Below, one piece after another: positions 26,538 to 59,191 of a stretch of DNA of 64,000 nucleotides (position 1 is its first letter; each line of letters opens with the position of its first letter). The position numbers and the translations under genes were made by a program. The notes under the pieces were generated by a model. The model saw only the letters and a list, made by a program, of their open reading frames with translations. It was not told the DNA's origin and did not search any database. Source of the DNA: Parasedimentitalea marina (GTDB lineage Bacteria > Pseudomonadota > Alphaproteobacteria > Rhodobacterales > Rhodobacteraceae); assembly GCF_004006175.1 (NCBI RefSeq), contig NZ_CP033219.1, positions 1 through 64,000 of the forward strand. Reading direction: 5' to 3'.

Positions 26538-26627
26538 CTCCCGCGCCCGCTGGATCGTCGGCTGCGCCGCCATATCCATAGCGGTCTTGGGCATAGCGCC
26601 GCGCTGACGCGCGGCGCGGTTGTGACC
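26538..26627 (+). repeat. Multi-hairpin repeat, degenerate copy A
   Basis: This copy lies in the 102-base gap between the convergent glpK and FAD monooxygenase genes. It has the left end CTCCCGC (26538-26544) and the left arm of the central palindrome, TTGGGCATAGCGCCGCGC (26587-26604), one base off copy C. The right arm is only partly kept (GCGCGGCGC at 26609-26617, loop TGAC) and the right end GCGGGAG is missing. I read it as a decayed or truncated member of the family at 33007, 50414 and 59015. The nine-base GC-rich stem that remains could still end transcripts. Confidence 0.7.
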
Positions 26628-26630
26628 CGT

Positions 26631-27884
26631 TTAGACCCGAGCGCCCGCCGTGATGATGCTTGGTTTTGCGTTCAGGGTCTTGATCGAGAACCCGGCCAGT
26701 GTCTTGTATTTCTCGGCGTGGGCAGCCAGTTTAGTCACCGGGATCACAGTGTTGATGTCGTCGAAATCCCCACCACAAAGGTCCTCGACCTGTTGCAAGA
26801 CAGCGTCGGGGCCGTTGCCTGACCGGTTGGCGCGCGCCACACTGGTGGCAATGGGGCGGACCTCATCCTCGAACGCCTGCAGTGCCGCTGTGGTGATGCC
26901 GTGCTGAAGGATGCGGGCGCCGATCACACGCGCATCAATGATCGCCTGTCCGGCCCCATTAGAGCCAATGGGATAGGTTGGATGTGCGGCATCCCCCATC
27001 AGGGTAACATTGCCGAAAGTCCATCGATCCAAGGGATCCCGGTCGACCATCGGGTATTCATAGACCACCTCGGCCGCTTTGATCAGGGCCGGAACGTCGA
27101 TCCAGTCAAACTGCCAATTGGCAAAATCGGGTAGGAAGTCGTTGATATCCGCAGCCCGGTTCCAGTCTTCCTTTTTCCACGCTGCGGATCGATCAAAGCT
27201 TTTCTCGGCGATCCAATTGAGGGTCGCGATGCCGTTTTCATCCGGGGTTGAAATCGGATAGGCGACCAGTCGGACCTCATCATGGCCGATCATCACCATG
27301 GAGGCGCCACCTAAGAAGGCCTTTGCCCGGGTTGTAGCCCGCCACAAAATGCGGCCGTTCCAAATGGGTGCGCCCTCGTCCGGTGCAATCTGTGCACGCA
27401 AAGCAGAGTGGATGCCATCGGCGGCGACAATCAGATCGCCGTCAATTCGACGACCATCGGCAAGCAGCAGTGACGCACCGCTTGCGGTGTTCTCAAAGCC
27501 ACTGGCACGGGCGCCGGTGGTGATACAGTCAGGTCCTGCACGGTCGAGCAAAACCCGATAGAGCATCATCTGCAAGGCGCCGCGATGTACCGAATATTGC
27601 GGCCAGGCATAGCCGGCCCAGGTTCCACGCGGCTCTTCCCAAATGGTTTTGCCTAGTTTGGAATAGAAGCCGTATTGCTGCGTTTTGACGCCAATGGCGT
27701 CCAGTTCGTCTGCCAGACCCAGATCCAGTAGCTCACGCACAGCATTGGGTTGCAGGTTGATGCCAACGCCCATGGGTTTGATTTCGGCTGTGGCCTCATA
27801 GATATGAAACGACACGCCAATTTGGTGCAGTGTCAGCCCGAGAGTCAGCCCTGCGATACCGCCGCCTGCGATGAGAATGGTCAT
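26631..27884 (-). CDS. FAD-dependent aromatic-ring monooxygenase
   Basis: A 417-residue group A flavoprotein monooxygenase (salicylate hydroxylase / PhzS-like; often annotated flavin-dependent oxidoreductase). It has the dinucleotide fold ILIAGGGIAGLTLGLTLHQIG at the N terminus, the DG motif LIVAADGIHSALR at about 155-165, and the GDAAHPTYPIGSNGAGQAIIDA flavin-ribityl motif at about 296-317. These enzymes hydroxylate aromatic acids with NAD(P)H and oxygen. The substrate is unknown. It stands alone, convergent with glpK and 80 bases after idi on the same strand. Confidence 0.9.
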   Translation of the reverse strand: MTILIAGGGIAGLTLGLTLHQIGVSFHIYEATAEIKPMGVGINLQPNAVRELLDLGLADELDAIGVKTQQYGFYSKLGKTIWEEPRGTWAGYAWPQYSVHRGALQMMLYRVLLDRAGPDCITTGARASGFENTASGASLLLADGRRIDGDLIVAADGIHSALRAQIAPDEGAPIWNGRILWRATTRAKAFLGGASMVMIGHDEVRLVAYPISTPDENGIATLNWIAEKSFDRSAAWKKEDWNRAADINDFLPDFANWQFDWIDVPALIKAAEVVYEYPMVDRDPLDRWTFGNVTLMGDAAHPTYPIGSNGAGQAIIDARVIGARILQHGITTAALQAFEDEVRPIATSVARANRSGNGPDAVLQQVEDLCGGDFDDINTVIPVTKLAAHAEKYKTLAGFSIKTLNAKPSIITAGARV

Positions 27885-27964
27885 TCAACGTCCTCCAAGT
27901 CATTGGATCACAAGAAGCACGGTGGCGCCTTGCAGGCAAGGCACAGGTCCCTGTGCCGCAGCGT

Positions 27965-28507
27965 TCAAGTCTTGGAGGCGATAATCAAATCTGGGCCAAA
28001 AATGACATCGGCATAGTTTTGCAAATAGATTTTCAGCCAGGGCGTGAACCGTCCGGGGTAACGAGCCACTTCGGCCAGTAAATCATGGTAATTGACCCAA
28101 CGGGTATCCATGACCTCATCCGGGTTCACATCCAACGCGAGCGGATGGTGCACATGGGTCAAAAAGATATCAACGGCCTCATGCTCGACCATGTCATTGC
28201 CGACGTCAGCGCGATATTCCAGATGATGGCGAAACTCCGGATAGAGGCCCGTGATACCCAGTTCCTGCTCCATCCGGCGCACCGCACAGGAAGAGGGTTG
28301 TTCCCCCCACATTGGATGGGTGCAGCAGGTATTCGCCCAAAGGCCCGGTGTGTGATACTTGCCCAAGGCCCTGCGCTGAAGCAAGATTTCTAGACCTTTG
28401 ACGACAAACACTGAAACCGCCTTGTGTTTCAAACCCGTTTCATGGGCGTAAAGCTTGTCGACAGGGGTAAGGACACCGTCCACCCAGGCTGGGATTAAAG
28501 AGTTCAT
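27965..28507 (-). CDS. idi: Isopentenyl-diphosphate delta-isomerase (type I)
   Basis: IDI interconverts isopentenyl and dimethylallyl diphosphate for isoprenoid synthesis. The 180-residue Nudix-fold protein has the active-site cysteine in GLWANTCCTHPMWGEQ and the catalytic glutamate block MVEHEAVDIFLT, both intact. In phototrophic relatives idi often lies in the photosynthesis gene cluster; here no bch, crt or puf genes flank it. Confidence 0.95.
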   Translation of the reverse strand: MNSLIPAWVDGVLTPVDKLYAHETGLKHKAVSVFVVKGLEILLQRRALGKYHTPGLWANTCCTHPMWGEQPSSCAVRRMEQELGITGLYPEFRHHLEYRADVGNDMVEHEAVDIFLTHVHHPLALDVNPDEVMDTRWVNYHDLLAEVARYPGRFTPWLKIYLQNYADVIFGPDLIIASKT

Positions 28508-28602
28508 TCAGGGTCCGCGATTGTTGTTTATCAGGATTCGTCCGTATCGGAACATATCCGGGTTAATCGCTAGTCGCTGCCGCCCTAAAAAGCAATGGAG
28601 CG

Positions 28603-28631
28603 AAAAGCCGCAACAAGTTGCGGCGGCTTTT
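28603..28631 (-). terminator. Terminator downstream of the cytochrome c gene
   Basis: AAAAGCCG (28603-28610) pairs with CGGCTTTT (28624-28631). The inner CAAC/GTTG pairs lengthen the stem with a three-base CGG bulge. It lies 26 bases past the cytochrome stop on the minus strand and reads into TTTT. Confidence 0.85.
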
Positions 28632-28656
28632 CATAGGTCTCAATGTAAGCGCCGGA

Positions 28657-29118
28657 TCAGTTGCTGGCAGGCTCTTCGGCGGCTTCTTCAGCGGGCTCAG
28701 CGGCCGGAGCCGGGCTGACACTGGCGAGGAAGGCAAAGATGTCTTCGCCGCCTTTTTTCAGCTTGAAGGACATTTTCGACTTGGCCTTGGCGTTGCCTGT
28801 TTCGGTTCTTAGGAATTCTTTGGGGTTGGTGACAAAGCCAACGAATTGCTCTTCGTCCCAAACCAGACCACCTTCGCCTGCGGCTACCATATCCTTGCTG
28901 TATTTGAAGCCTTCAGTGGTGCCGGCAACACGGCCAGGAAGGCCCCAGAGGTTCGGACCTGTCTTGCCGCCTTTGACGAAGACTTCACCATCGTCCGAGA
29001 CGACGCTGTGGCACGCTTTGCACTTGTTAAAAGATTTTAGGCCCTTGGCGATGTCACCCTCAGCAAATGCGGGTGCGGCGAGGAGGCTGACGAACGCAGC
29101 TGCGGCGAATAGTTTCAT
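28657..29118 (-). CDS. Periplasmic c-type cytochrome (cytochrome c2-like)
   Basis: A 153-residue class I cytochrome c, an electron carrier in the periplasm. Residues 1-19 are a Sec signal (MKLFAAAAFVSLLAAPAFA). The haem site is Cys33-Lys-Ala-Cys36-His37 and the axial methionine is probably Met116 in KSKMSFKL. The GKTGPNLWGLPGR segment is typical of c2. The mature protein ends in an Ala/Pro/Glu-rich acidic tail of about 20 residues. The ATG at 29118 has a GGAG ribosome binding site. The upstream region carries an FNR-type box, so expression probably rises at low oxygen. It resembles cycA, but orthology is not proven. Confidence 0.92.
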   Translation of the reverse strand: MKLFAAAAFVSLLAAPAFAEGDIAKGLKSFNKCKACHSVVSDDGEVFVKGGKTGPNLWGLPGRVAGTTEGFKYSKDMVAAGEGGLVWDEEQFVGFVTNPKEFLRTETGNAKAKSKMSFKLKKGGEDIFAFLASVSPAPAAEPAEEAAEEPASN

Positions 29119-29166
29119 ATGTTTGCTCCGGTTCAATTGGCTAAAGGCATTACTTGCCTTCGTGGC

Positions 29167-29208
29167 ATAATAGTCAACTGGAGGAGCGGCAAGTTTGATG
29201 TATATCAC
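29167..29208 (-). promoter_or_regulatory. FNR/FnrL-type box and -10 element of the cytochrome gene
   Basis: The plus strand reads TTGATGTATATCAC at 29195-29208, one mismatch from the FNR consensus TTGAT-N4-ATCAA. On the minus strand a -10 box TATTAT lies at 29172-29167, which puts transcription start near 29160. The box centre is then about 41 bases upstream, the spacing of a class II FNR-activated promoter. No good -35 is present, as expected for an activated promoter. The coordinates span both elements. Confidence 0.65.
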
Positions 29209-29228
29209 TTAAAACATACGTGATCGCG

Positions 29229-30257: not shown

Positions 30258-30348
30258 GGTGGTTTCCTGCACAAAAAAGGGCGGTGAGGGCAGGCCAAAG
30301 TGCACTGCCCTCGGTAGAGATAATTAGACTAAGGCCAATGGGCCGTCG

Positions 30349-31445: not shown

Positions 31446-31507
31446 GGCTTTCTCCAAATTGACTTAGCGGCACGGTAGCAGCGTGTCAGGTGGGTGCAAT
31501 CACCGGA

Positions 31508-31927: not shown

Positions 31928-32032
31928 GGGTCATGTCCTTGGGTCTGTGAAAGCCTGATTGTCAGGTCGGGTTTGTACCTGATTTTCCCAAAAGGGTCAC
32001 ATTATTTGCTTTAAAATATCAAAAGGGCTGAC

Positions 32033-32055
32033 CGAAAGCGCAACGGACAGCCCTT
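32033..32055 (-). terminator. Terminator between the small ORF and arfB
   Basis: AAGGGCTG (32033-32040) and CAGCCCTT (32048-32055) form a perfect eight-base stem with a seven-base loop. Read on the minus strand the stem runs into TTTTGATATTTT. It lies 24 bases past the stop of the small frame described at 32079-32179, so a short minus-strand transcript seems to end here. Confidence 0.75.
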
Positions 32056-33006: not shown

Positions 33007-33135
33007 CTCCCGTCCGTCGTCAGGCATCCTGGATGCCGTCCTCCCGTTGGGCGTGGCGCCGCGCAAAGCGCGGCGCCACGCCCAAGCCTGCTGCGGATGC
33101 GCAGGTGAAGCCTGGGCACCCTGCAGGCGCGGGAG
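33007..33135 (+). repeat. Multi-hairpin repeat, complete copy B
   Basis: A 129-bp element between yhhQ and the phytase-esterase-like gene, 24 bases from the latter's stop. Ends are CTCCCGT (33007-33013) and GCGGGAG (33129-33135), inverted. Inside are hairpin 1 (GGCATCC/GGATGCC, 33023-33037) and the central perfect 18-bp palindrome TTGGGCGTGGCGCCGCGC / GCGCGGCGCCACGCCCAA (33047-33064 and 33068-33085) with loop AAA. On the right is a weaker stem around CTGCG/CGCAG. It shares the right-end string CCTGCAGGCGCGGGAGT almost exactly with copy D. Confidence 0.85.
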
Positions 33136-33159: not shown

Positions 33160-34068
33160 TTAGTCGGGAAGGGAGTATTCTACTAATTCTGTGCGTTGCA
33201 ATATCAGGAAATTGTCGTCGGACACCATTGTGGCCCGAAGGCGCCCAGTGGCGTCACGCCAGACCGAAAGTCCTTCCAGATTGTCATGCCGGCCAGAGGA
33301 CGTCTGCAACAGGATCTGTTCGTTTTTGGGGCCTTTTTCGGTGAAATCCCATCGGCGCAACCGACTGCGAAATCCGAAAAACCCGTAATCGCGTTCAAGT
33401 AGGTAAAAGCGACCATCGGGGCCAAAGTCGGCACTGACAGGAAAAAAGCCGCCTTTGGGTGGAAGGGTAAAGGGGGTCGACCATTTTCGACCATTCCAGC
33501 GCCAGACAGGAATTTGGCCGTCACTGTTCAATGCGTTTTCCGGCAAGGTGTAGAGGTGTCCGCGTGCATCACTTGCAAGGGCCTCTAGCGCCTTGTTGAT
33601 TGGCAGTCTGCGGAATGCTTTGGGGCGTGGCAACACTTCGGCGCGACTGCTTGCTTTGCGGTGGCGTGCCACCCGCGAGATTCCCTCAAAAGAGACGTAG
33701 ATGGTTCCATCGGGGGCAATAGCGAGCCCTTCGCTGTCTTTGGTAAAACCTTTCAAAACCCCTCCGGTGGAGGCGCGTAATTTATGCACTGACTTAATTT
33801 CGATCCCGGATATCTGGCCTACGTCGCGATCGATCTGAGCAGTGGCGAGGGTGGCGCGATCACTGAGAATGGTCATGGAACAGCCATCTGGGCTAAGCGA
33901 AAGCGCAGAGAGGCCGCCAAACCATTTTGCGTTAATCTGCCAGGTGTAACTGCCCAAATAGGACGCAGTGTTAATTGTTTCAGGACGGTTTGCAGCATGG
34001 GCAACAATCCCCAGAGTTGCTGCAAGGGCCAAGCCGAGCGTTAGTTTGATTGCAGTACCGAGGCGCAT
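33160..34068 (-). CDS. Secreted esterase-like activity of phytase family protein
   Basis: A 302-residue protein of the phytase-esterase-like (PF13449) beta-propeller family. It begins with a Sec signal (MRLGTAIKLTLGLALAATLGIVAHA). Family blocks include FGGLSALSLSPDG, DSEGLAIAPDGTIYVSFEG and the closing NLEGLSVWRDATGRLRATMVSDDNF. The activity of the family is not well established; a phosphoesterase or lactonase-like role is only suggested by name. Its start overlaps the 3' end of mepA by 28 bases, so it is the last gene of an envelope-related run. Confidence 0.85.
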   Translation of the reverse strand: MRLGTAIKLTLGLALAATLGIVAHAANRPETINTASYLGSYTWQINAKWFGGLSALSLSPDGCSMTILSDRATLATAQIDRDVGQISGIEIKSVHKLRASTGGVLKGFTKDSEGLAIAPDGTIYVSFEGISRVARHRKASSRAEVLPRPKAFRRLPINKALEALASDARGHLYTLPENALNSDGQIPVWRWNGRKWSTPFTLPPKGGFFPVSADFGPDGRFYLLERDYGFFGFRSRLRRWDFTEKGPKNEQILLQTSSGRHDNLEGLSVWRDATGRLRATMVSDDNFLILQRTELVEYSLPD

Positions 34069-42659: not shown

Positions 42660-42804
42660 CCTTATGGGCTCCAGCGACAACGAAACAAGAGGGTAAACCC
42701 CAAGATCAATTCCAAACGTGAAATACTAATTAAGCCTAGCTACGTCGTCATCCTTGCCATGTGGTTAATCGCGTGACAGCCTGAGTATAAATTTGGAGGG
42801 TGTT

Positions 42805-48246: not shown

Positions 48247-50393
48247 GACCTGTGGCGCAAATCACCAAGAGTAGCGCCAAACCTAGGGCGGGTGCGAAAG
48301 CGCCCTCCCGCGGGGAGGTCGGACGTTTCCCGGCCTATCAGTCGGCCAAGTGGTGGAGACGGTGGGGCGTGGCGCTTGCTATCACGCTTGCTGTCCTCCT
48401 CGTAGGCGGAAACCGCGCTTTCAATTCTTGGATCGATGACACGGAACTGCCGGTCACCCTGGCCGAGACGTCGACCGAAGTGCGCGACCGTAACGGTCAG
48501 TTATTGCGTGCTTATCCGGTAGGAACGGGCATTTGGCGGCTGGCGGTGCACCCTGATCAAGTCGACCCCAGCTATCTCTCAATGCTGGTACGCTATGAGG
48601 ACAAACGGTTCTGGAGCCATTCCGGCGTTGACCCTCGGGCCATGGCGCGCGCGGTAGGGCAGGCGGTGTGGAACGGCCGGGCGGTGTCAGGCGGATCAAC
48701 CCTGACGATGCAGGTGGCCCGGTTGTTAGAAGACGGCAGCACTGGGCGCTGGGAGGGCAAGCTGCGTCAGATCCGTCTGGCACTGGCTCTGGAACGGCGG
48801 CTGAGCAAGCAACAGATCCTGACACTTTATCTGACCCATGCCCCATATGGTGGCAACTTAGAAGGAATCCGGGCGGCAACCCTGGCGTGGTTTGGCAAAG
48901 AACCCGGGCGGTTGACGGCCTCGGAATCTGCGCTTTTAGTGGCCATGCCACAGTCCCCCGAGCGCCGCCGTCCTGACCGAGCGCCTGACAGTGCCCGTGC
49001 TGCCCGTGACCGGGTTTTGTCGCGTATGTCACGTCAGGGCGTGATTGATGCAGGTGAGATGCAGATGGCGCAGGCCGAGGCAATCCCGCGCAAGATGGTG
49101 CCTTTTGCCCAACTGGCGCCTCATCTTAGTGACCGAATGCTGGCCACCGACCCGGATTTGCAACGATTTGACCTGACCATTGATGCGGGCGTACAGGCCC
49201 GGATGGCGCAGCTACTGCGGGATGCGACCCGGCAAGGCGGCGAACGGTTATCGGCGGCGATGGTTGTTGCGGACTATCAGACCGGAGAGGTGCTCGCTTC
49301 GGTTGGTTCACCCGGCTATCGCGACAGCAGGCGGTTGGGTTTTGTTGATATGACACAGGCGCTGCGATCCCCTGGATCAACGCTGAAACCGTTGATTTAC
49401 GGGCTGGCCTTTGATGAAGGGTTGGTTCATCCGGAAACACTGATTCATGATGGGCCGGTGAATTTTGACGGCTATGCTCCGCAGAACTTTGACGGCGAAT
49501 TTCGCGGCGATGTGCGGGTGCGCGAGGCGCTGCAACTGTCTTTGAATATCCCAGTGGTCAAGCTGACGAATGAATTGGGCGCTACGCGTATCATGTCGGC
49601 CCTGCGCCGCGCCGGTGCCACACCAAAACTGCCCGGAGGCGTACCGGGACTGGCCATTGCGCTGGGCGGAGTTGGCGTATCGCTGCACGATCTGGTGCAG
49701 CTTTATGCTGGGCTGGCGGCAGGCGGGCAGGGGCCGAGACTGTCGCTGCGCTTGGATGAGGTCAGTTCTCAACAGCGGCGATTGGTTTCGGGTGTGGCGG
49801 CCTGGCAGTTGATGGACATCCTGCGCGGATTGGCGCCGCCACAGGGTGCGCGGGCGGGTGTGCTGGCCTATAAGACGGGGACATCTTACGGCCACCGGGA
49901 CGCCTGGGCACTGGGCTGGGACGGGCGCCATGTGATCGGCGTCTGGATGGGCCGAGCGGATGGCACACCTGTGCCTGGAGTATTTGGTGGCAGCCTGGCA
50001 GCGCCGGTCTTGTTCGAGGCCTTTGGACGGTTGAAGCCCGGTTTCGAGCCGCTGCCCCCGCCACCAGCTGCAACGCTGATTGTAAGTTCTGCCGAGCTGC
50101 CCCAACCCCTGCGCCGGTTCCGTCCGCGTGATGCGGCATTTGAAGAACCAAGCGATGCACCGAAGCTGGTGTTTCCACCGGATGGAGCCCAACTGGCATT
50201 GCTGGATGCGTCTCTGACCCTGAAACTGCGCGGCGGAACTGCTCCATTTTTGGTGTTGGCGAACGGATTGCCGGTGATTCAGGGGCAGCATGTTCGAGAG
50301 TTCGAGATCCCTAATCCGGGTCGCGGATTTTCTGCATTGGTGGTGATCGATGGGAAAGGCAAATCAACCCGCGTCACTGTACGGGTCGAGTGA
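48243..50393 (+). CDS. pbpC: Penicillin-binding protein 1C
   Basis: PBP1c is a bifunctional peptidoglycan synthase. The 716-residue protein has one membrane anchor (about 38-55), a glycosyltransferase domain (VRYEDKRFWSHSGVDPRAMARA, GGSTLTMQVARLLE), and a transpeptidase domain with the nucleophile serine in SPGSTLKPLIYG and the KTGTSYGHRDAW box. The C-terminal domain PKLVFPPDGAQLALL is specific to PBP1c. It starts at a GTG overlapping the macroglobulin stop by four bases and is therefore coupled to it. Confidence 0.96.
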   Translation: MRPVAQITKSSAKPRAGAKAPSRGEVGRFPAYQSAKWWRRWGVALAITLAVLLVGGNRAFNSWIDDTELPVTLAETSTEVRDRNGQLLRAYPVGTGIWRLAVHPDQVDPSYLSMLVRYEDKRFWSHSGVDPRAMARAVGQAVWNGRAVSGGSTLTMQVARLLEDGSTGRWEGKLRQIRLALALERRLSKQQILTLYLTHAPYGGNLEGIRAATLAWFGKEPGRLTASESALLVAMPQSPERRRPDRAPDSARAARDRVLSRMSRQGVIDAGEMQMAQAEAIPRKMVPFAQLAPHLSDRMLATDPDLQRFDLTIDAGVQARMAQLLRDATRQGGERLSAAMVVADYQTGEVLASVGSPGYRDSRRLGFVDMTQALRSPGSTLKPLIYGLAFDEGLVHPETLIHDGPVNFDGYAPQNFDGEFRGDVRVREALQLSLNIPVVKLTNELGATRIMSALRRAGATPKLPGGVPGLAIALGGVGVSLHDLVQLYAGLAAGGQGPRLSLRLDEVSSQQRRLVSGVAAWQLMDILRGLAPPQGARAGVLAYKTGTSYGHRDAWALGWDGRHVIGVWMGRADGTPVPGVFGGSLAAPVLFEAFGRLKPGFEPLPPPPAATLIVSSAELPQPLRRFRPRDAAFEEPSDAPKLVFPPDGAQLALLDASLTLKLRGGTAPFLVLANGLPVIQGQHVREFEIPNPGRGFSALVVIDGKGKSTRVTVRVE

Positions 50394-50413
50394 CAATTAG
50401 ATGCCGAACCAAA

Positions 50414-50547
50414 GGCTCCCGCGTCTGTACGGAGCATCGGCAAGTGCCGAGACACCGTACAGACTTGGGCGTAGCGCCGCGCTTTGCGCGGCGCTACGCC
50501 CAACGGGAGGCCGACCTCCATTGGGAGGTCAACGACGGGCGGGAGCC
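50414..50547 (-). repeat. Multi-hairpin repeat, complete copy C
   Basis: A 134-bp element in the 186-base gap between convergent pbpC and the membrane-protein gene, in the reverse orientation to copies A, B and D. It has perfect nine-base inverted ends, GGCTCCCGC (50414-50422) and GCGGGAGCC (50539-50547). Inside are a nested hairpin (GTCTGTACGG/CCGTACAGAC with inner TCGGCA/TGCCGA, 50423-50464) and a central perfect 18-bp palindrome (50465-50482 and 50486-50503, loop TTT). A third hairpin is GACCTCC/GGAGGTC (50513-50530). The central stem has A-T where copy B has G-C, a paired change that keeps the stem. Confidence 0.88.
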
Positions 50548-50579
50548 ATTGAAAAGACGAAAGTTGGGCCGCCCGTCAG

Positions 50580-52622
50580 TTATCGCCGGCCCTCTCGGAT
50601 CCAACCAACCGTGATGAAAAATGATGCCAATAGCAGTACCAGCCAGGGTGGTAGCAATTGGGATTGTACCACGGACAGAGTTTCATAGGCGTTTCGAGGC
50701 GTTAAACCGATCCATCCGCGTCCTGAGGCGGGACGCCCAGTACGGGTATTTCTAAGGACGGGAATACCGTCCTGCAGGCGCAATAGCCCGCCGCGTGTCG
50801 GCTTGATCACAGGCTGAAGGATGTCTCTGGTGGCAATGGTCTCCTCGAATTCCCGCGGCGCAGCGGGGCCAAGACCGATAACGGCAGACTGGTCGCCTTC
50901 GGTCAGGCGGTACAGTCCGATTTCAGGGCCTTCAAACTGGGTTTCCCATTGCCCTGGGCCGGTTTCGGTCAAGTCCAGTTTAACGGTGCTGCCATCGGGG
51001 TGGGTCACCGTGACCTGGCCGACCGAGTCATCCAGAGTGCGCCGCAAGATGCGCATACGTTGGCCGACTGCCTCGGCCCAAAGGGCCTGCTCTTCGAGTT
51101 CCGGCTCTTTCATCATCCAATGCGCTAAGCGTCGCAGCAGTTCCAGCTGCGGGCCGCCGCCCTCATAGCCCCTGCTCCATAGCCAGGCGTGATCCGAGGC
51201 CAGCAGCGCCACGCGACCTTCGCCGACCCGGTTCAGCACCAGCAAGGGGCGATCGTCGAGACCGGACATCAAGGTGTGGCCCTGTGGTTGGTCCACCTCA
51301 ATCTGACGCAACCAGCGGCCCCAGGTTGCGGCGTCTCCCAAATCGGCGGTAACCGGATGTCGTTGGCCAAGATCCGTGACGACAGGCTGATAAGGGTCTT
51401 CGATGACCCGCGCCGTCGGGCGTGCGGGAAGAACCAGGGACAAGGGCGAGCGGTAGATGCTGTCGGCGGTGGCAAAGTCGGGCCCGGCGGCGACCAGTAC
51501 TGCGCCGCCCTTGGTCACATAATTGGACACATTGTCCAGATAAATTGCAGGCAGAATCCCACGTCTTTGGTAGCGATCAAAGATGATCAGGTCGAAATCA
51601 TCGATCTTTTCCAGAAACAACTCACGCGTGGGAAAGGCAATCAGCGACAGCTCGTCCACCGGTACCCCGTCCTGTTTTTCAGGCGGGCGCAGGATGGTGA
51701 AATGGACCAGATCTACCGCGCTGTCGGACTTCAGCAGATTGCGCCAGGTGCGGCTGCCGGGATGTGGTTCGCCCGAGACCAGAAGCACCCGCAGTCGATC
51801 CCGCACCCCATTGATCTGCACCAGCGCGGTGTTGTTGCGATCCGTTAGCTCGCCCTGTTCTTTGGGCACGGTAAACTGGATCACATTGCGCCCACCATGT
51901 GGCAGCGTTAGCGGCAGGTCGATATCAGCGCCAATAGGCAGCGAGAACCGTTGCGGCGCGGCGCCGTTGACCGATATTTCCAGGGGGGCCAGCGCGGAGT
52001 TGTCTGGAGCTGCGCCCTGATCCTCGATGCGCAGGGTCAGGGTCACGGGCTCACCGATGATGGCGAATCCAGGGGCATTGCGTACAATCAGGCGGCGATC
52101 CCAATCGGTATTCTTGCCGGTCGCCAACAGGTGCAGCGGGGCAGGTAAGTCAGGAGCGTCTTGAACATCATGGATCTGTCCATCCGACAGCGCGATGATG
52201 CCAGCAATGCGGGAGCGGGGTTCTTCGGCCAATGCTTCAGAGATGGCGCCCATCAGTTGTGAGCCGGTATCGGCTTCCCCATCATCCAGGGTTATCCAGC
52301 GGGTCTGGGTGTTGGGGCGATCTGCCAGCTGATTGGCAAGGTCGGCCCTGGCAGCATCCATCTGGGCCGGGCGGTCAGAAAGCTGATTGCTGGCGGTGTC
52401 ATCTGACACCACCAATACGATGTCGCTAAGCGGCGCACGGTTTTCAACCTGATAGACCGGCCCGGACAGTGCAGCGATCAACACCAGTGCCGCAAAACCA
52501 CGTAAGGCCCAGCCGGACAATCCTCGCCAAAGGGCCGCGCCAATGCTGATCAGCGACAGGGCCGATAACCCCCCAATCACTGTCCATGGTACCAGCGGAT
52601 CAAAAAGGATTACCTGTATCAT
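50580..52622 (-). CDS. Membrane protein with class I glutamine amidotransferase-like domain
   Basis: A 680-residue protein with membrane helices near the N terminus (about 10-58) and one at the extreme C terminus (PPWLVLLLASFFITVGWI). Between them is a von Willebrand-like segment (DIVLVVSDDTASNQ...IAGIIALSDGQIHDV) and a glutamine amidotransferase-like fold (RLRVLLVSGEPHPGSRTWRNLLK...FDLIIFDRYQRRGILP...GGAVLVAAGPDF), with no clear catalytic Cys-His-Glu triad. It overlaps the DUF4159 gene by four bases and is last in the moxR operon. Function unknown. Confidence 0.82.
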   Translation of the reverse strand: MIQVILFDPLVPWTVIGGLSALSLISIGAALWRGLSGWALRGFAALVLIAALSGPVYQVENRAPLSDIVLVVSDDTASNQLSDRPAQMDAARADLANQLADRPNTQTRWITLDDGEADTGSQLMGAISEALAEEPRSRIAGIIALSDGQIHDVQDAPDLPAPLHLLATGKNTDWDRRLIVRNAPGFAIIGEPVTLTLRIEDQGAAPDNSALAPLEISVNGAAPQRFSLPIGADIDLPLTLPHGGRNVIQFTVPKEQGELTDRNNTALVQINGVRDRLRVLLVSGEPHPGSRTWRNLLKSDSAVDLVHFTILRPPEKQDGVPVDELSLIAFPTRELFLEKIDDFDLIIFDRYQRRGILPAIYLDNVSNYVTKGGAVLVAAGPDFATADSIYRSPLSLVLPARPTARVIEDPYQPVVTDLGQRHPVTADLGDAATWGRWLRQIEVDQPQGHTLMSGLDDRPLLVLNRVGEGRVALLASDHAWLWSRGYEGGGPQLELLRRLAHWMMKEPELEEQALWAEAVGQRMRILRRTLDDSVGQVTVTHPDGSTVKLDLTETGPGQWETQFEGPEIGLYRLTEGDQSAVIGLGPAAPREFEETIATRDILQPVIKPTRGGLLRLQDGIPVLRNTRTGRPASGRGWIGLTPRNAYETLSVVQSQLLPPWLVLLLASFFITVGWIREGRR

Positions 52623-55393
52623 TGGCCTAGCCTGTCCAGCAATGCAGGCACATGGACCTGATCGGATTTATAATTGCCGGTCAGCACATGCATCACCAGA
52701 TTAACACCAAAACGATAGGCCAACTCGCGTTGGCGTTCGCCGGCAAAGCCACGCCCCACCGGCAATAGCGGTCGCCCGTTGTTGTCCACTGCCCAGGCGG
52801 CCCCCCAGTCATTGCCGCCGATGACCACCGGTGTCACACCGTCGTTGAGATTGCGGAACGGCATGCCTTCGATGTGCTCGGCGTCCACCGGGGCCGCCTC
52901 GACCCAAAGCTCACCACGTTGGTGACGGCCGGGAAAATCCTGCAGCAAGTAAAAGCTGCGCGTCAGCACGTGGTCGGCGGGCAGCGGCTCCAGCGGGGGG
53001 ATGTCCAGAGACCGGGCCAGTTGTTGTAATTTGCGGGCGTTTGCACTGCTGGCACCGGATCCAACTAGATTGGCGTCGCGGGTGTCGAACACTATCATGC
53101 CGCCAGTGCGCAGATAGGCGTTCAACCGGGCATAGGCCTCGGCTGAGGGGCGCGGTTGGTCTGGCGTGATCGGCCAGTACAGCAATGGGTAGAACGCCAG
53201 CTCATCACGTTCCAGATCAACACCCACGGGGACCGAGGGTTCGATCGAAGTGCGAAAGAGCAGCGTGTTGGACAGTCCGCGTAACCCGTCATGGGCGATA
53301 GCGTCGATCTGATCATCGCCCGTTAGCACATGCGCCAGTGCCAGCTCTGAGCTGAGACCCAGTAAATCAGCACCCTGCTGGGCCTGGGCTGGTTGGACCG
53401 GAAGGCAAAGCCCGCCGACTGTCGTCAAGCCAAGCACCAGGGCAGCGGTGCGGGACATGTGCAGCAGCCCTGACACCGCCAGCGAGGCCGCTACGTCCAG
53501 TGCCAACAACATCAGTGCCAAGCTGAGTAACAGCCCGCCCAGGGCGCGTTCAGGCGCTAAGGCTGCACTGATCACTGGTATATTACTGGGCCAGAGCGCA
53601 GGACGCAATTGATCACCTGCGCGCAAAACATTGCGTGCCAGTTTTCGGGTGCCGCTGTCGTATAAACCGGGGCGCAGGCCGGGGCCGGCGGGGGCCTCCA
53701 TCAGGTCAGGGCCATCAACGCCGGACAGGGTGCCTGCCTCGGTAAGGCGACCAAACCCGTCCAGGACACTAATCGGTGTCCAGACAGTGCCCTCTAGTTC
53801 CTCTGCGCTGGGAAGCTTGGCGGCGGTAGAGACCGCCAGCCGTTCCAGCATTTCCACAAACAGCCCGGACAGCGGCAAGCTGGTCCATTCGGCATTGGCG
53901 GTGACGTGAAACAGCACAACTTGCCCTTGACCCAGCGGCTTGCGCGTCACCAGCGGGGTGCCGTCGCCCAGCTCGGCAATCACCCGGTCCGCCAGACTGG
54001 GGTCGGGCTGCGCCACCACCTGCGAGCTTACCGTGACCTCTTGGGGAATAGTCAGGCCATAGAACGGTGTGTTTTGTTGGAAGGTGGCCAGAGTTTTGGG
54101 CTCACCCCAGCTCATCGCGCCGCCCAGGCTGCGGCCGCCACTGCGCAGGCGAACGGGCATCAGCGGGTGTTCTTCATCGCGGGAGATATCGCTGGCGGCC
54201 AGTCTTGGTCCGGCAAAGCGCAGCAACATGCCGCCCTTTTCGACCCATTCGGTCAATGCGTCTTCTTCGCTTGGGGCCAGTCGCGCGACGTCGGCCAGAA
54301 TGATGACATCCGGATTGGCAGGCAGCAGATCACCCAGCCCGCCTTCGAACAATTCGGCCGTTGGCTGTAGGGCCTGACGCAGGTAATGCATTGGCGACAG
54401 CAGGATCAGGCCCTCGTTATCAGTCTGCGAGGTGATCAGTGCCACCTCACGACGACGCAGGCTGTCGTCGGTTAAGGCTACAGCTCCGGCAGAGCGGACT
54501 TGCTGCAGCTCAAACCGGGTAATCCGGGCGCGCAGTTCCGAAGGCAGGATCAGCTTGGCGCTTGCGGTGTTCCCATCAGCGGCAAATTCGGCGGTGGCCG
54601 TGGCCAGCACCCGCAGGGTGCCACCAGGATCACGACCCTGGGCGCGTACGGTGACCTGTTGCTCGGCAAGGGCTTGGCTGCGAATAGCCGTCAGCTCGAT
54701 GGCACCATCTGCAAATTGCGCTGGCAACAGTCCCAGCCTGTTCGTGGTGGTCTGATATGCCTGCACCCCGCCGCGCTGCATTAGCGCCGCAGTTAGCTGA
54801 TCGCGGTCAGGATAATCCAACCCATCGGAAAACCACAGGGTGTCAAACCCCGTGTCCACCGCTGCTATGTGTGTCATCGCGGTGGCTATCTGGTCCGGGC
54901 TTGGCTGCCAGGGCTGCGGCACCAGCCCGGCCACCCGCTTGCGCCAGACATCGGCGGATTGAAAATGCAGCGCCTCGGGTGCGGTCAAACGCAGCACGGC
55001 GACGGTACGATCGGCGCGTCCGGCCTCGGCTAACTTGGTGACCATCTGTTCGCTGGTGTTCTTCCAGTCGTCGGCTCCGGCCCAACTGGCGTCCAGAACC
55101 ACCAGCAGTGGGCCGTTTCCGGCAGTGGCAGTGGGCGTGGGGTTTAGTACCGGGCCTGCCAGACCGATGATTGCCGCCGCCACCGCCAGCATGCGCAGCA
55201 GCAACAGCCACCATGGTGTGCGGTCCGACAGGCTCTCGTCGTCGCTGAGCCCCAGCAATAAGGTGACAGCCGGAAACACCCGACGCACCGGTGCAGGCGG
55301 GACGGCGCGCAGCAGCAGCCATAAGATAGGCAGCGCCAGCAATCCCAATAGCAGCCAGGGTGTGGTGAAACCGATGCCAGCCAGCGTTGTCAT
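52619..55393 (-). CDS. BatA-like / DUF4159 membrane protein
   Basis: A 924-residue protein. The first 80 residues are a BatA-type N-terminal domain with two helices (FTTPWLLLGLLALPILWLLLRA and TPWWLLLLRMLAVAAAIIGLAGPVL). A von Willebrand-like region (LLVVLDASWAG, with the MIDAS motif degenerate) follows, then two more helices at about 650-715. The DUF4159 domain fills the end (HDGLRGLSNTLLFRTSIEP...LLYWPITPDQPRPSAEAYARLNAYLRTGGMIVFDTRD). I start at the ATG at 55393, which shares a base with the DUF58 stop (TAATG). The frame also opens at 55492 in non-conserved sequence. Role unknown; likely envelope or MoxR-associated. Confidence 0.88.
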   Translation of the reverse strand: MTTLAGIGFTTPWLLLGLLALPILWLLLRAVPPAPVRRVFPAVTLLLGLSDDESLSDRTPWWLLLLRMLAVAAAIIGLAGPVLNPTPTATAGNGPLLVVLDASWAGADDWKNTSEQMVTKLAEAGRADRTVAVLRLTAPEALHFQSADVWRKRVAGLVPQPWQPSPDQIATAMTHIAAVDTGFDTLWFSDGLDYPDRDQLTAALMQRGGVQAYQTTTNRLGLLPAQFADGAIELTAIRSQALAEQQVTVRAQGRDPGGTLRVLATATAEFAADGNTASAKLILPSELRARITRFELQQVRSAGAVALTDDSLRRREVALITSQTDNEGLILLSPMHYLRQALQPTAELFEGGLGDLLPANPDVIILADVARLAPSEEDALTEWVEKGGMLLRFAGPRLAASDISRDEEHPLMPVRLRSGGRSLGGAMSWGEPKTLATFQQNTPFYGLTIPQEVTVSSQVVAQPDPSLADRVIAELGDGTPLVTRKPLGQGQVVLFHVTANAEWTSLPLSGLFVEMLERLAVSTAAKLPSAEELEGTVWTPISVLDGFGRLTEAGTLSGVDGPDLMEAPAGPGLRPGLYDSGTRKLARNVLRAGDQLRPALWPSNIPVISAALAPERALGGLLLSLALMLLALDVAASLAVSGLLHMSRTAALVLGLTTVGGLCLPVQPAQAQQGADLLGLSSELALAHVLTGDDQIDAIAHDGLRGLSNTLLFRTSIEPSVPVGVDLERDELAFYPLLYWPITPDQPRPSAEAYARLNAYLRTGGMIVFDTRDANLVGSGASSANARKLQQLARSLDIPPLEPLPADHVLTRSFYLLQDFPGRHQRGELWVEAAPVDAEHIEGMPFRNLNDGVTPVVIGGNDWGAAWAVDNNGRPLLPVGRGFAGERQRELAYRFGVNLVMHVLTGNYKSDQVHVPALLDRLGQ

Positions 55394-56280
55394 TATCGGG
55401 TACTTTCTAATGCGTGATACAGCCACAACAGGGCCGTCTGGGCACTGTCGCCGGTGTGATGCTGGCCCAGGCGCCAACCGGTGGCGCGACACAGGCTGTC
55501 CAGGGCATCGCGTCGCTCTGCCAGCCGATCCAGATAGCGGTCCCGCAGCGCCGATGCCTTGAGTGTTTCATGGCGCAACCCGCCACTGACGCTTTCGAAC
55601 AGGGTGCGACCGGAAAATGGAAAACCCTCTTCGCTGGGATCGAGAACTTGCAGCAACACACCGCGAAGACCGCGGTCGGCAGCTTTGCTGAGGGCCAGTT
55701 GCAATTCGCCAAAGGGGCCAAGGAAATCGGAAATGAACAGGCCCCGTGCATGGGGAATCATGGCGTGATGTTCGGGCGGGGCGTAGTCAACGTCATCCTT
55801 GATACTCAATGCCTCGGCCATGCGCAGAACCTGCATGTTGCCACTGCGTGGCGGCAGGGATGTCCCGGTCAGGCCAACGCGTTCTCCGCCGCGGATCATT
55901 AAAATCGATGCTGCCAGGGCCAGCTTGCGGGCGCGGTCGATCTTTTGCGGCAACTCGGGTTTCGAGGCAAAGCGCATCGATCCGCCCTGATCGACCCAGA
56001 CATGCACTGTCTGGGCAATCTGCCACTCGCGTTCGCGGATAAATTGTTGATCGCCGCGCGCCGAGCGACGGTGGTCGATCAGGCTGCGGCTGTCACCGGG
56101 TTGAGCCGGGCGATATTGCCAAAAATCGTCTCCCATTCCGGCACGCCTGCGGCCATGTTCGCCCAGCAACACCGAACCAGCCAGCTGTTCAGCCTGCACC
56201 AACAACGGTGGCAGGCTGCCGGCCTCAATTTCGGCGCGGTGTCTTAGCTCGGTGGCCTGAGGGATCTTGGCTAGGCTCAC
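55393..56280 (-). CDS. DUF58 domain-containing protein
   Basis: A 295-residue DUF58 protein, the usual partner of MoxR ATPases. Family features are GEHGRRRAGMGDDFWQYRPAQPGDSRSLIDHRRSARGDQQFIREREWQIAQTVHVWVDQGGSM, where the last part is a degenerate MIDAS-like motif. It starts at a GTG overlapping the moxR stop (GTGA). It has no membrane helix and is thought to form a complex with MoxR and the membrane-bound downstream proteins. Confidence 0.9.
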   Translation of the reverse strand: MSLAKIPQATELRHRAEIEAGSLPPLLVQAEQLAGSVLLGEHGRRRAGMGDDFWQYRPAQPGDSRSLIDHRRSARGDQQFIREREWQIAQTVHVWVDQGGSMRFASKPELPQKIDRARKLALAASILMIRGGERVGLTGTSLPPRSGNMQVLRMAEALSIKDDVDYAPPEHHAMIPHARGLFISDFLGPFGELQLALSKAADRGLRGVLLQVLDPSEEGFPFSGRTLFESVSGGLRHETLKASALRDRYLDRLAERRDALDSLCRATGWRLGQHHTGDSAQTALLWLYHALESTR

Positions 56281-57284
56281 GCGGCGGCCTTGGTCCGGGT
56301 AAGATCCGCAGCCGTAGTGGCGATCAGATCAGTCAAGCTGTCGCCCCGGGCGCGGGCGGCAAAGTTCAGCGCCATGCGGTGGCTCAGCACCGGCTGCGCC
56401 ATATCGATCACGTCCTCGGCACTGGGCACTAAATGGCCCTGTAGTAATGCCCGCGCCCGCACTGCCAGCATCAGCGCCTGCGCCGCGCGCGGGCCGGGGC
56501 CCCAGGCCACGGTTTGGGCAACTTGGTCGGTGACACCGGGTTCGTCGGGACGGAAGGCACGGACCAGATCCAGGATCAGCTCCATCACCGATTCGCCAAC
56601 TGGCACCCGGCGCAACAGGGTCTGAGCAGCAATCAGGTCTTCGCCGGTGAAGACCTGCACGGCTTTGCTGTCCACTGTCCCGGTGGTAGCCAGCAGAATG
56701 TCCCGCTCGGTGTCACGGGTGGGATAGCTGACGTCAATCTTGAGCAGGAACCGGTCCAGCTGTGCTTCAGGCAGGGGATAAGTGCCTTCCTGCTCGATCG
56801 GGTTCTGGGTGGCCAGCACATGGAACGGCGCGCCAAGCGGCCTGTCTTCACCCGCTACGGTCACTGTATGTTCCTGCATCGCCTGCAGCAGTGCCGACTG
56901 TGTGCGCGGGCTGGCCCGGTTGATTTCATCGGCCATCAGCAGCTGGCAAAACACGGGCCCCGGTACAAAGCGGAACGATCGGTGGCCTTCGGCATCGGTA
57001 TCCAGAACCTCAGAGCCAAGAATGTCGGCCGGCATCAGATCAGGCGTGAACTGGATTCGATTTCCGTCCAGGCCCATTACGGTCGCAAGGGTTTCTACCA
57101 GCAGGGTTTTACCCAGGCCGGGTAGCCCAATCAGCAGCCCGTGACCACCACATAACAGGGTCGACAGCGCCAGATCCACCACACGCTCTTGTCCGATGAA
57201 CTGTCGGGTGATCGAGTCCCGCGCTTGTTGCAGTTTTTCTTGCAAAGCCTCGATTTCAGTCAGCAGGTCGTCGGGTTCGGACAT
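56277..57284 (-). CDS. MoxR-family AAA+ ATPase
   Basis: A 335-residue AAA+ chaperone-like ATPase of the MoxR family. Walker A is GLPGLGKT at about 56-63, Walker B lies in LLMADEINRA, and sensor and arginine-finger blocks appear in HVLATQNPIEQEGTYPLPEAQLDRFLLKI. The C-terminal lid carries RAQALMLAVRARALLQG. The ATG at 57284 follows AAGGGGA; the frame opens 70 codons earlier in sequence that overlaps the divergent gene. It is first of four coupled genes that together resemble MoxR/DUF58/BatA systems for assembly of membrane or secreted complexes. Confidence 0.94.
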   Translation of the reverse strand: MSEPDDLLTEIEALQEKLQQARDSITRQFIGQERVVDLALSTLLCGGHGLLIGLPGLGKTLLVETLATVMGLDGNRIQFTPDLMPADILGSEVLDTDAEGHRSFRFVPGPVFCQLLMADEINRASPRTQSALLQAMQEHTVTVAGEDRPLGAPFHVLATQNPIEQEGTYPLPEAQLDRFLLKIDVSYPTRDTERDILLATTGTVDSKAVQVFTGEDLIAAQTLLRRVPVGESVMELILDLVRAFRPDEPGVTDQVAQTVAWGPGPRAAQALMLAVRARALLQGHLVPSAEDVIDMAQPVLSHRMALNFAARARGDSLTDLIATTAADLTRTKAAA

Positions 57285-57336
57285 GACATTCCCCTTGTCG
57301 CGAATATATAATGGTACTCTATCGTGCTGGAGGGAA

Positions 57337-57930
57337 ATGGCAAAAGCAATGAATGGACAAAATGATGTGAGCCCGTCGGCCGAGGGCATCGCGGCGTCGA
57401 TAAAAGCCGCAAAGAGTGGCGGATTGCCGCCAGTGCACCTGTGGAACCCGGCGTTCTGCGGTGATTTGGATATGCGGATCGCCCGCGATGGCACCTGGTT
57501 TTATCTGGGCACCCCAATTGGCCGCTTCGAGCTGGTCAAACTGTTCTCATCGATTCTTAAACGCGAAGACGGCAAATATTTTCTGGTCACTCCGGTTGAA
57601 AAGGTCGGCATCACTGTCGATGATGCGCCGTTTGTTGCGGTGGATTTTGACGCCACGGGCAGTGGGGCCGCGCAGATTATTAGCTTCTCCACTCATGTGG
57701 GGGACATCGCCATTGCCGGACCAGACCACCCTATCCGGGTGGTGCGCGATCCGCAGACAGGAGAGCCTTCCCCTTATGTCCTGATTCGCGCCGACCTAGA
57801 GGCCCTGATTGATCGCAAAAGCTTTTACCGGCTGGTCGATCTGGGTGCGCATCACGATGGCTGGTTCGGAGTGTGGTCGTCAGGGCAGTTTTTCCCGGTG
57901 ATCCCGTCAGCGGATTTGGACGAGACATGA
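57337..57930 (+). CDS. DUF1285 domain-containing protein
   Basis: A 197-residue DUF1285 protein. The conserved core begins PPVHLWNPAFCGDLDMRIARDGTWFYLGTPIGRFELVKLFSSILKREDGKYFLVTPVEKVGI and includes DAPFVAVDFDATG. Function is not known, though the fold is conserved in alphaproteobacteria. The ATG at 57337 follows GGAGGG. It is divergent from moxR across a 52-base gap, a conserved neighbourhood in this group as far as I recall. Confidence 0.9.
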   Translation: MAKAMNGQNDVSPSAEGIAASIKAAKSGGLPPVHLWNPAFCGDLDMRIARDGTWFYLGTPIGRFELVKLFSSILKREDGKYFLVTPVEKVGITVDDAPFVAVDFDATGSGAAQIISFSTHVGDIAIAGPDHPIRVVRDPQTGEPSPYVLIRADLEALIDRKSFYRLVDLGAHHDGWFGVWSSGQFFPVIPSADLDET

Positions 57931-58046
57931 TGGGCTTACCGGTTGTTTCTGATTTGAGGGTTACCGGGTGCTGACGTCAAATGCGCGCAATTTGAAGAAA
58001 TGATGGCACCACACTCGAAGCGATATGTGTCATTCGTTGACAACCC

Positions 58047-58066
58047 CGGCCTCACGTCTGGGGCCG
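58047..58066 (+). other. Hairpin before the hydroxypyruvate-isomerase-like gene
   Basis: CGGCCTCA (58047-58054) pairs with TGGGGCCG (58059-58066) with one wobble around a CGTC tetraloop. It lies 116 bases after the DUF1285 stop and 26 before the next start. The following ATCACATTT is a poor T run. It may be a weak terminator or a leader structure. Confidence 0.4.
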
Positions 58067-58092
58067 ATCACATTTAACCGGGAAGGGTCCTG

Positions 58093-58845
58093 ATGCCTAA
58101 GTTTGCAGCCAATATCTCGCTGCTGTTTTCCGAACTGCCTTACCTCGACCGGTTTCAGGCCGCCGCCGCTGCCGGGTTCGAGGCCGTGGAGATCCTGTAT
58201 CCCTATGAGACTGCCGCCAAGGAAACCCAGCGCGCCCTGATGAGCAACGGGTTGGAGCTATTGCTGATCAATGCACCTCCGCCGAATTATACCGGAGGTG
58301 AGCCGGGTTATGCGGCCATTCCAGGTGGCGAGGACCGCTTCCAGCGCGATATCCGCAGGGCGCTGCGCTATGCGGAAGTACTGCGCCCAGGGATGATCCA
58401 TGTAATGGCCGGCTATGAAAAAGGTCTGGCAGCGCAGGAGACCTATATTCGCAATCTGCAATGGGCAGCGGACCGGGCGCCTGAGCAGAAATTCACCATC
58501 GAACCGCTCAACAGCGGTGACCAGCCGGGCTATTTTCTGGATGATTACAATCTGGCGGTTGAAATTCTGGATGCCGTGGACCGCCCTAATGTTGGGTTAC
58601 AATTCGATGCCTATCATGCGCAGATGATCCATGGTGACGCCGCGCAGGTCTGGGATGCGTTTTCAACCCATGCTGCGCATATCCAAATCGGCGCGGCACC
58701 GGCTCGCAGTGAGCCGGGTACGGGCCCAATGGATTTTAGCGCTCTGTTTAATGCAATTGATGAAAGCGGTTATGCAGGCTGGGTGAGTGCAGAATACACC
58801 CCAACAACCAAACGCACCGAGGATAGTCTGGGTTGGATGTCATAA
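58093..58845 (+). CDS. Hydroxypyruvate isomerase family TIM-barrel protein
   Basis: A 250-residue xylose-isomerase-like TIM barrel of the Hyi/OtnI group. Typical blocks are FAANISLLFSELPYLDRFQAAAAAGFEAVEILYPYE at the N terminus, and the metal ligands are expected in FTIEPLN (Glu), LQFDAYHAQ (Asp/His) and the final SAEYTP (Glu). Family members interconvert hydroxypyruvate and tartronate semialdehyde or 2-oxotetronates. No glyoxylate or tartrate pathway gene lies nearby to decide. A GGGAAGG ribosome binding site precedes the ATG. Confidence 0.88.
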   Translation: MPKFAANISLLFSELPYLDRFQAAAAAGFEAVEILYPYETAAKETQRALMSNGLELLLINAPPPNYTGGEPGYAAIPGGEDRFQRDIRRALRYAEVLRPGMIHVMAGYEKGLAAQETYIRNLQWAADRAPEQKFTIEPLNSGDQPGYFLDDYNLAVEILDAVDRPNVGLQFDAYHAQMIHGDAAQVWDAFSTHAAHIQIGAAPARSEPGTGPMDFSALFNAIDESGYAGWVSAEYTPTTKRTEDSLGWMS

Positions 58846-59014
58846 CCAGATAAACGACGAAGTGTACAAGTGCGCTGGAGTGAGAGTCGTTGTCGCGTGC
58901 AGGTGGATCGCATTTTGGCAGGAGATTCCAGTTTCGTGTTCGGTTGCCCATACCTTTGGAACAAGCATCGTAGCTGTATTGAGGTATCGCAAGGGTTTGC
59001 CAAGGAACGGCGTT

Positions 59015-59191
59015 CTCCCGCCCGTCATCGACCTCCTGTCGGAGGTACTCTGCCAGTTGGGCGTGGCATGAAGCGCTCCTACGGAGCACTTCATGCGGGT
59101 CGTGTGCCACCGGCGCCGCGCATTGCGCGGCGCTTGGCCCAAGGCTGTCATGGGGAATTGGCGTAGCCGGTTCACCTTGCAGGCGCGGGAG
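59015..59191 (+). repeat. Multi-hairpin repeat, copy D with inserted hairpin
   Basis: A 177-bp copy filling the 368-base gap between convergent hyi-like and polA genes. Inverted ends are CTCCCGC (59015-59021) and GCGGGAG (59185-59191). Hairpin 1 is ACCTCC/GGAGGT (59031-59046). The central palindrome starts TTGGGCGTGGC at about 59057 but is then split by an extra hairpin, GCATGAAG/CTTCATGC with inner GCTCC/GGAGC (59066-59096). It resumes as GCGCCGCGC/GCGCGGCGC (59113-59133). The rest of the gap outside the element shows no gene or RNA that I can recognise. Confidence 0.8.

Follow-up and report, generated by a model that had tools for sequence, protein, structure and literature searches.

An apparently undescribed two-part hairpin repeat lies downstream of genes in marine Rhodobacterales

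The first 64,000 nucleotides (nt) of contig NZ_CP033219.1 of Parasedimentitalea marina (Rhodobacteraceae; NCBI RefSeq assembly GCF_004006175.1), hereafter the window, carry four intergenic copies, A to D, of a multi-hairpin repeat (Table 1). Copy A starts 9 nt past the stop codon of an FGGY-kinase gene and ends 13 nt short of the stop codon of an opposing FAD-binding gene. Copy B lies in a tandem context: the CTCCCG end of its R module is 24 nt away from the stop codon of a phytase-like gene, and the gene on the opposite side is called on the same strand. Copy C is flanked by convergent genes, one of them for penicillin-binding protein 1C (PBP1C), and copy D adjoins polA. Gene neighbours, here and throughout, are our own codon-score calls and not annotation.

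Table 1 Copies of the repeat in the window, their parts and the adjoining genes
Feature	Position	Strand	Remarks
FGGY-kinase gene	25044-26528	+	next to copy A
Copy A	26538..26617	+	single R-type module; found by looser module scan
A, CTCCCG	26538-26543	+	
A, TTGGGC	26587-26592	+	
A, terminal hairpin	26596-26617	+	GCGCCGCGC-TGAC-GCGCGGCGC
FAD-binding gene	26631-27884	-	next to copy A
Copy B	33007..33135	+	full element, L then R module; exact-end search; covariance model 121 bits
B, L module	33007..33052	+	CTCCCGTCCGTCG-hairpin-CTCCCGTTGGGC; hairpin 33023-33037
B, central palindrome	33047..33085	.	common to both modules; 18 bp, loop AAA
B, R module	33080..33135	-	
Phytase-like gene	33160-34068	-	next to copy B
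PBP1C gene	48243-50393	+	next to copy C
Copy C	50416..50545	-	full element; exact-end search
C, R module	50416..50470	+	
C, central palindrome	50465..50503	.	18 bp, 3-nt loop
C, L module	50498..50545	-	hairpin 50513-50530
Gene convergent with PBP1C	50580-52622	-	next to copy C
Copy D	59015..59191	+	long form; exact-end search; covariance model 69.6 bits
D, L module	59015..59062	+	
D, hairpin after L module	59066..59096	.	ATGAAGCGCTCC/GGAGCACTTCAT
D, hairpin of R module	59113..59133	.	GCGCCGCGC-ATT-GCGCGGCGC
D, R module	59137..59191	-	
polA	59214-62015	-	next to copy D

What repeats is half an element, a module some 75 nt long, and not the 130-bp whole. Every module runs in the order CTCCCG, variable hairpin, TTGGGC, GC-rich hairpin, and there are two types. 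The L type (CTCCCGCCCGTCG, a small hairpin, CTCCCGTTGGGC and a GC-rich hairpin) stands alone at many sites, especially in Leisingera, and several single L modules are wedged in where two convergent genes end, with a stop codon on either side; examples of single modules in the window's own genome are loci L222, L224, L226 and L231. The R type (CTCCCGCGCCYGC, a longer hairpin, TTGGGC) forms the opposite half. In a full element L and R meet head to head and their terminal hairpins merge into one 18-bp palindrome, so that two inverted units make one hairpin in B, C and 17 aligned copies, while singlets also exist. In D and similar long forms the hairpins stay separate, with extra sequence between them. 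Elements are 123-177 bp long, and the head CTCCCG/CGGGAG is invariant in 20 aligned copies. Both CTCCCG and TTGGGC are kept in single modules, at loci that were found via those motifs or the covariance model, though no partner pairs with them there. The persistence of TTGGGC in these modules suggests that the sequence itself matters, and not pairing alone.

This anatomy revises the original prediction, which took the whole element as the unit and gave all four window sites one family and one layout. Common family membership stands at all four sites, but the layout, with inverted ends (as CTCCCG...CGGGAG) around an 18-bp palindrome whose loop is 3 nt, applies to B and C only. Copy A, described earlier as a decayed full copy, is instead a single module of R type, complete with a 9-bp terminal hairpin of its own, a form that recurs at further loci; the central palindrome once assigned to D is not present, its two modules each keeping a hairpin. 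When the copies were folded as single-stranded DNA and compared with dinucleotide shuffles, z was -11.4 for C, -8.4 for B, -5.3 for D and -2.1 for A, the fold of A being equalled by 6 of 200 shuffles.

These repeats are real and not the product of chance. A covariance model built from 17 aligned copies returned 66 rows at E <= 0.01 in the window's genome (G000; 5.08 Mb in five contigs), which hand merging of strands reduced to 43 distinct loci; with copy A and the sites at 1980802 and 369272 the total is at least 46, so the expectation of many copies genome-wide was borne out. All 20 of the weaker sites that we fetched show a CTCCCG...TTGGG module when a loose pattern is applied. Covariance matches occur in all 8 Parasedimentitalea genomes, and the exact L motif is found in 30 of 295 sampled Rhodobacteraceae genomes (20 copies in G000, 91 in G080), a count that is a floor since an exact motif was required; a reversed control pattern had no match in the same 295. 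A search with a stricter filter and 10 candidates scored per genome gave 8 of 295, again a floor. In a class-wide sample of 240 genomes the exact L motif appears in G000 only, and it is absent from the 237 class genomes outside the family. Named matches among 58 stretches include Leisingera, Phaeobacter, Tritonibacter, Tropicimonas, Aliiruegeria, Rubricella and Roseicyclus. A further record, JAHVJD010000010.1 (L090), is titled Nocardioides marinus strain DP1N28-1 and carries a Leisingera-like module with a Leisingera-like neighbour gene; it is probably mislabelled or contaminated.

The modules sit just beyond the ends of genes. We scored placement for the 307 of 347 modules with both neighbours called, the 40 others being left out for want of a called neighbour; these counts include orthologs and both modules of a pair and are not independent. 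In 231 of the 307 the CTCCCG end looks towards a stop codon, always without overlap between gene and module. This holds for 57 of 69 single modules, at a median gap of 20 nt, and for 174 of 238 paired ones, at a median of 36 nt. Only 7 of 307 modules lie between divergent genes, compared with 6 of 26 window intergenic gaps longer than 40 bp, and the loci scored in the window's genome comprise 12 convergent, 14 tandem, 1 divergent and 1 undecided. By our gene calls the family thus shares with repetitive extragenic palindromic (REP) sequences and bacterial interspersed mosaic elements (BIMEs) an extragenic position at the 3′ ends of transcription units. Sequences of the REP/BIME class are moreover transcribed, stabilise or end mRNA and are bound by gyrase, IHF or Pol I.

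Strong hairpins placed after stop codons and between convergent genes are also what one would expect of simple bidirectional intrinsic terminators, whose likeness would only reflect how common GC-rich hairpins downstream of genes are in this group. One single module in G022 (L308:476-570) even resembles an intrinsic terminator, its terminal hairpin being followed by TTTTTT, unlike most modules. We nevertheless judge this explanation improbable: the long common unpaired motifs CTCCCGCCCGTC and CTCCCGTTGGGC occur in 30 genomes of the family and in 0 of 237 of other families, convergence fails to explain this much common sequence, and the terminal hairpin has no general U-tract after it (T makes up 11-39% at positions 1-10 of single modules). 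Other repeated stretches were seen in the same surroundings. Some single modules (L225:441-463, L228, and Leisingera L082, L090, L110 and L111) have beside them a palindromic stretch (CTCCGGGGCTTGCCCCGGACCCC and similar) and, in Leisingera, a CTCCGGGGTGAATTGGCC stretch; both look like separate 3′-end repeats of the group.

The structure of the element is conserved while its letters vary, as had been predicted. In the 17-copy alignment 92.7% of cells pair. Both sides have changed in 17 of 39 pairs, a number that 500 shuffles never reached and that 6 slid controls, with 8 pairs at most, did not reach either; four of five covariation measures surpass all 500 shuffles. Among 163 distinct L hairpin regions, 123 contain a perfect stem of at least 5 bp, built from 74 different stems, against 7.4% of shuffled regions.

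Elements also persist at the same sites. By clustering on flanks, 18 of 28 copies in the window's genome grouped with loci of other Parasedimentitalea species, the criterion being any flank match of at least 150 bp, possibly on one side only; the ten copies without a partner were compared with fetched elements and not with whole genomes, and absence is not implied for them. Within the genus, then, the picture is not one of recent mobility. Across 99 ortholog pairs, drawn from 18 groups, identity is 83% in the element, 53% in its 60-nt flanks and 32% for shuffled flanks, and the element exceeds its flanks in 97 of the 99; paralog pairs within the window's genome (n=136) average 69%. Aligned ortholog groups show a conserved element between 25-nt flanks that are mostly unalignable. 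Copy C has counterparts in G004, G002 and G003, with paired changes in the central stem in G004 and different loops in G002 and G003, and G001 holds a deletion remnant, not an empty site. Copy D has counterparts beside polA in related species, its long form included. Across genera, where 28 loci of the window's genome were compared with 74 loci, the element stands beside a 77% identical gene in L004/L075 and beside an 81% identical neighbour gene in L015/L066; L005/L089, L012/L069, L018/L084 and L050/L073 have genes in common, with the listed element not at the same place. One copy, L038 (G000:C5:95003-95144) and L160 (G004:C3:39079-39220), is on a small contig, which in G004 is a plasmid record. 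Its flanks match those of loci in five genomes of the genus, and it therefore seems no younger than the chromosomal copies.

This persistence bears on the idea that the repeats are ancient and are kept only by quasi-palindrome correction (template switching), with no selection. Most aligned copies do have an almost perfect central stem, and this extends to orthologs whose letters differ. The unpaired CTCCCG...CTCCCGTTGGGC, however, is conserved among orthologs as strongly as the stems, and the flanks are not. Neutral inserts of 130 bp would moreover be expected to have been lost by deletion at this divergence. We regard correction without selection as highly improbable.

Two rearranged genomes were noticed at the window's copies. 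In G005 (C29:93849-104840; L139, L147 and L152) the stretch between the C and D sites (window 50389-59215) is inverted, and polA directly abuts the far flank of C with no element between; G006 is broken at both sites. An inversion driven by the elements is not claimed for G005, as the ends are not clean C/D hybrids. Such breaks, like the two-fold symmetry of full elements and their conserved ends, would suit a site acting at the DNA level, for example one for a nucleoid, gyrase or recombination protein, for which the repeats would provide paired or palindromic targets between transcription units. There are single modules too, though, and these lack symmetry, the hairpin letters vary with paired changes in a manner that suits structure more than a DNA-binding sequence, and the rearranged genomes are only two. 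We give this explanation little credence.

Turnover was examined in g74, the genus of G080, G302, G303 and G304, in which G080 and its three relatives have 53-71 matches each. By hand count, G304 has 35 near-full-length matches that are 76-91% identical to a G080 copy. Of 28 loci fetched from G304, 21 could be cut out exactly (the seven others failed the strict pattern and were left out), and the 16 of these compared for identity average 91%. When seven G304 sites were set against the relatives, 14 of 19 regions held some form of the element, which argues that most of the tested G304 copies are not new insertions into empty sites. The form differs by relative. L242 has long forms, and at L262 both G302 and G303 carry only a half; in G080, L246 holds two L modules as a pair and L250 an element whose order is inverted to R-L. 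The regions without an element are L288, L289, L290, L300 and L301; L289 retains a 22-bp remnant, CTCCCG-10-CGGGAG, and L290 matches on one side only and may not be the same site. Presence and absence differ between relatives at L239 and at L258, where the element is in G304 and G080 and missing in G302 and G303, in which two genes appear to overlap. Differing forms at fixed sites, together with the similarity among L halves described below, show that halves are exchanged or converted in place.

Signs of insertion were sought at the borders of the elements. No direct repeat of at least 3 nt abuts both ends in any of 68 genus copies or 21 G304 copies, and 2-nt repeats are at chance level. An outer stem formed by the 3 nt outside each end was also absent, the pairing seen there being reached by 95 and 231 of 300 shuffles, and a weak flank motif exists outside the element ends. 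Fresh insertion into empty sites, which we checked at C and at the seven G304 sites, was rejected on the strength of the G001 remnant and the occupied g74 regions.

The original prediction had also likened the family to REP/BIME repeats and looked to a linked REP-associated tyrosine transposase (RAYT). The resemblance holds for placement and architecture; a RAYT link is not supported. In RAYT-associated families the genome has a RAYT gene with two inverted repeats of the family on its sides. No Y1_Tnp protein was found in the window's genome or in any of the four g74 genomes searched. Y1 proteins are present in 4 of 8 Parasedimentitalea genomes and in 2 of 5 other element-bearing genomes; the three that we typed all score over the IS200 cut-off and none over the RAYT cut-off, and among 12 Y1 loci inspected two hold a module by the loose pattern. 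The head sequence differs as well, GTAG/GTGG being absent from 20 aligned copies, and we rejected membership among RAYT-type REPs. One locus of G022, L309:1371-2085, has an IS200 transposase copy between two outward-ended module-like halves. It was considered as a RAYT unit and rejected, since its protein is IS200, and it is possibly an IS200 insertion into the centre of an element. The two remaining Y1 genes of this genome are those at L308, with a module about 1 kb off on one side, and at L310, which lacks one.

These results can be set against the view that the family is a selfish non-autonomous repeat, similar to REPINs or to miniature inverted-repeat transposable elements (MITEs), copied in trans by some enzyme and found after genes because insertions are tolerated there. 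Its patchy distribution (30 of 295 family genomes, with 91 exact L motifs in G080), the near-full-length matches in G304 with their high identity, the presence/absence differences at L258 and L239 and the lack of target duplication, as in REPINs and IS200, would all fit. The flank-matched counterparts of 18 of 28 copies within Parasedimentitalea, the relative regions of g74 that are already occupied and the lack of a Y1 transposase in five copy-rich genomes speak against it, as does the failure to see an autonomous version in a search that was not exhaustive. On balance we hold the selfish repeat to be somewhat unlikely.

What we propose as the likeliest reading, at about even odds, is that the modules form a family of directional elements just downstream of genes that act on mRNA 3′ ends, in their formation or their protection. 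Read from the gene, a stop codon is followed, after a few to a few tens of nt, by CTCCCG, a hairpin of free letters, (CTCCCG)TTGGGC and a GC-rich hairpin. One module would serve one transcript, and a head-to-head pair, its terminal hairpin common or separate, would serve two convergent genes. Once transcribed, a module would fold into stable hairpins beside conserved unpaired CUCCCG motifs, and the hairpins and CUCCCG may help to stop or pause RNA polymerase, to block 3′-5′ decay as REP/BIME RNA does, or both. We infer that the RNA form is what matters, with any factor that reads CUCCCG being putative.

Several observations weigh against this proposal. Full elements are symmetric, which makes a DNA-level role possible. 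The sense preference of single modules is weak and only suggestive, with 23 reading with the gene and 11 against it between tandem genes (p about 0.06, by hand). Besides the want of a general U-tract, a terminator scan covering 50300-50700 detects a single site there, which falls outside element C (the mean for shuffles is 0.5); the family is therefore not a classical intrinsic terminator, and factor-dependent termination or protection from 3′-5′ decay appears more likely. For the fifth covariation measure, further pair types, 10 of 500 shuffles reach the observed value; pairing in the left hairpin is limited to 69% of cells in the 17-copy alignment, where its loop lengths vary. Template-switch repair can preserve perfect palindromes without selection. 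Some orthologs have decayed, 6 of 74 copies being without exact ends and left out of the flank analysis. In g74, lastly, an L half resembles its ortholog scarcely more than it does other G304 copies (the ortholog was ahead in 8 of 13 comparisons, and differences were at most 0.04), which implies that some turnover or conversion acts.

A broader and rather unlikely version would make the family a directional RNA module specific to Rhodobacteraceae, whose conserved unpaired CUCCCG is read by a putative factor to form or protect mRNA 3′ ends; it would be retained at the same genes between species, and at some sites between genera, its copies homogenised and its halves exchanged in place without a recognised transposase.

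One feature of the window lies apart from the repeats themselves. By Pfam, the stretch 42793-50393 next to copy C encodes a bacterial alpha-2-macroglobulin and then the penicillin-binding protein 1C, a known pairing of genes.

The family is an apparently undescribed two-part hairpin repeat of marine Rhodobacterales, present in dozens of copies, that may shape the ends of gene messages. Enterobacteria and pseudomonads are the source of the best-known REP/BIME-type repeats, which are associated with RAYT transposases. The family here belongs to an abundant marine group, and the copy-rich genomes that were tested lack a Y1 transposase. Its orthologous copies can be compared base by base, and from one sister species to the next the same gene ends carry single, paired, long, swapped or inverted forms. 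This makes testable both the selection of such repeats for a job at the mRNA 3′ end and the renewal of a repeat population in place without a known transposase.

Comparison with known families agrees with the earlier impression that this one had not been described: Rfam gave 0 window matches at the gathering score, the 9 matches obtained at 7 loci under permissive settings were all below it, and no description was found in the open-licence literature. IS200/IS605 elements (NCBIfam NF033573) have hairpin ends. They differ in that five copy-rich genomes tested here have no Y1 transposase, and the elements described here, at 123-177 bp, are too short to encode one. With respect to MITEs, the inverted ends are just 6-7 bp and there is no target-site duplication, and an autonomous partner was not searched for exhaustively; with respect to intrinsic terminators, the GC stem is without a U-tract, bar the one G022 module.

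The remaining comparisons draw on partial texts of the cited papers. The 127-bp intergenic ERIC sequence can likewise fold as RNA and is reported to affect neighbour-gene expression in Yersinia, but it is one long stem-loop with the ERIC core sequence, reported from E. coli, Yersinia and Vibrio (PMC2267715), whereas the present element has at least three hairpins from two modules and comes from another class of bacteria. Our conserved motif looks unrelated to ERIC, from which it is set apart by description and not by sequence alignment. Nearest in architecture and place is Br-REP1, described with Br-REP2 in Bradyrhizobium (PMC5082802). The Br-REP consensus, CCGGAATCTCGAGATTCCGG, is unrelated in sequence and reported from Bradyrhizobium and Rhodopseudomonas, and the portions of that description consulted contain no two-module orientation rule or ortholog-level paired changes (PMC5082802). 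As related there, REP RNA impedes 3′-5′ decay, acts in termination and stalls ribosomes if it lies within 15 nt of a stop codon (PMC5082802), behaviour that serves as our working analogy for a 3′-end role. REP and REPIN sequences are defined by a GT(A/G)G head and a short imperfect palindrome (PMC2817692). The RAYT-associated REPs, BIMEs and REPINs and the family reported here are alike in being extragenic and palindromic, in forming hairpins from inverted pairs, in occurring also as singlets and in persisting for very long (PMC2817692, PMC8049555); what distinguishes the present family from them is the size of its module, about 75 nt, the conserved unpaired motif within it and hairpins whose letters are not conserved.

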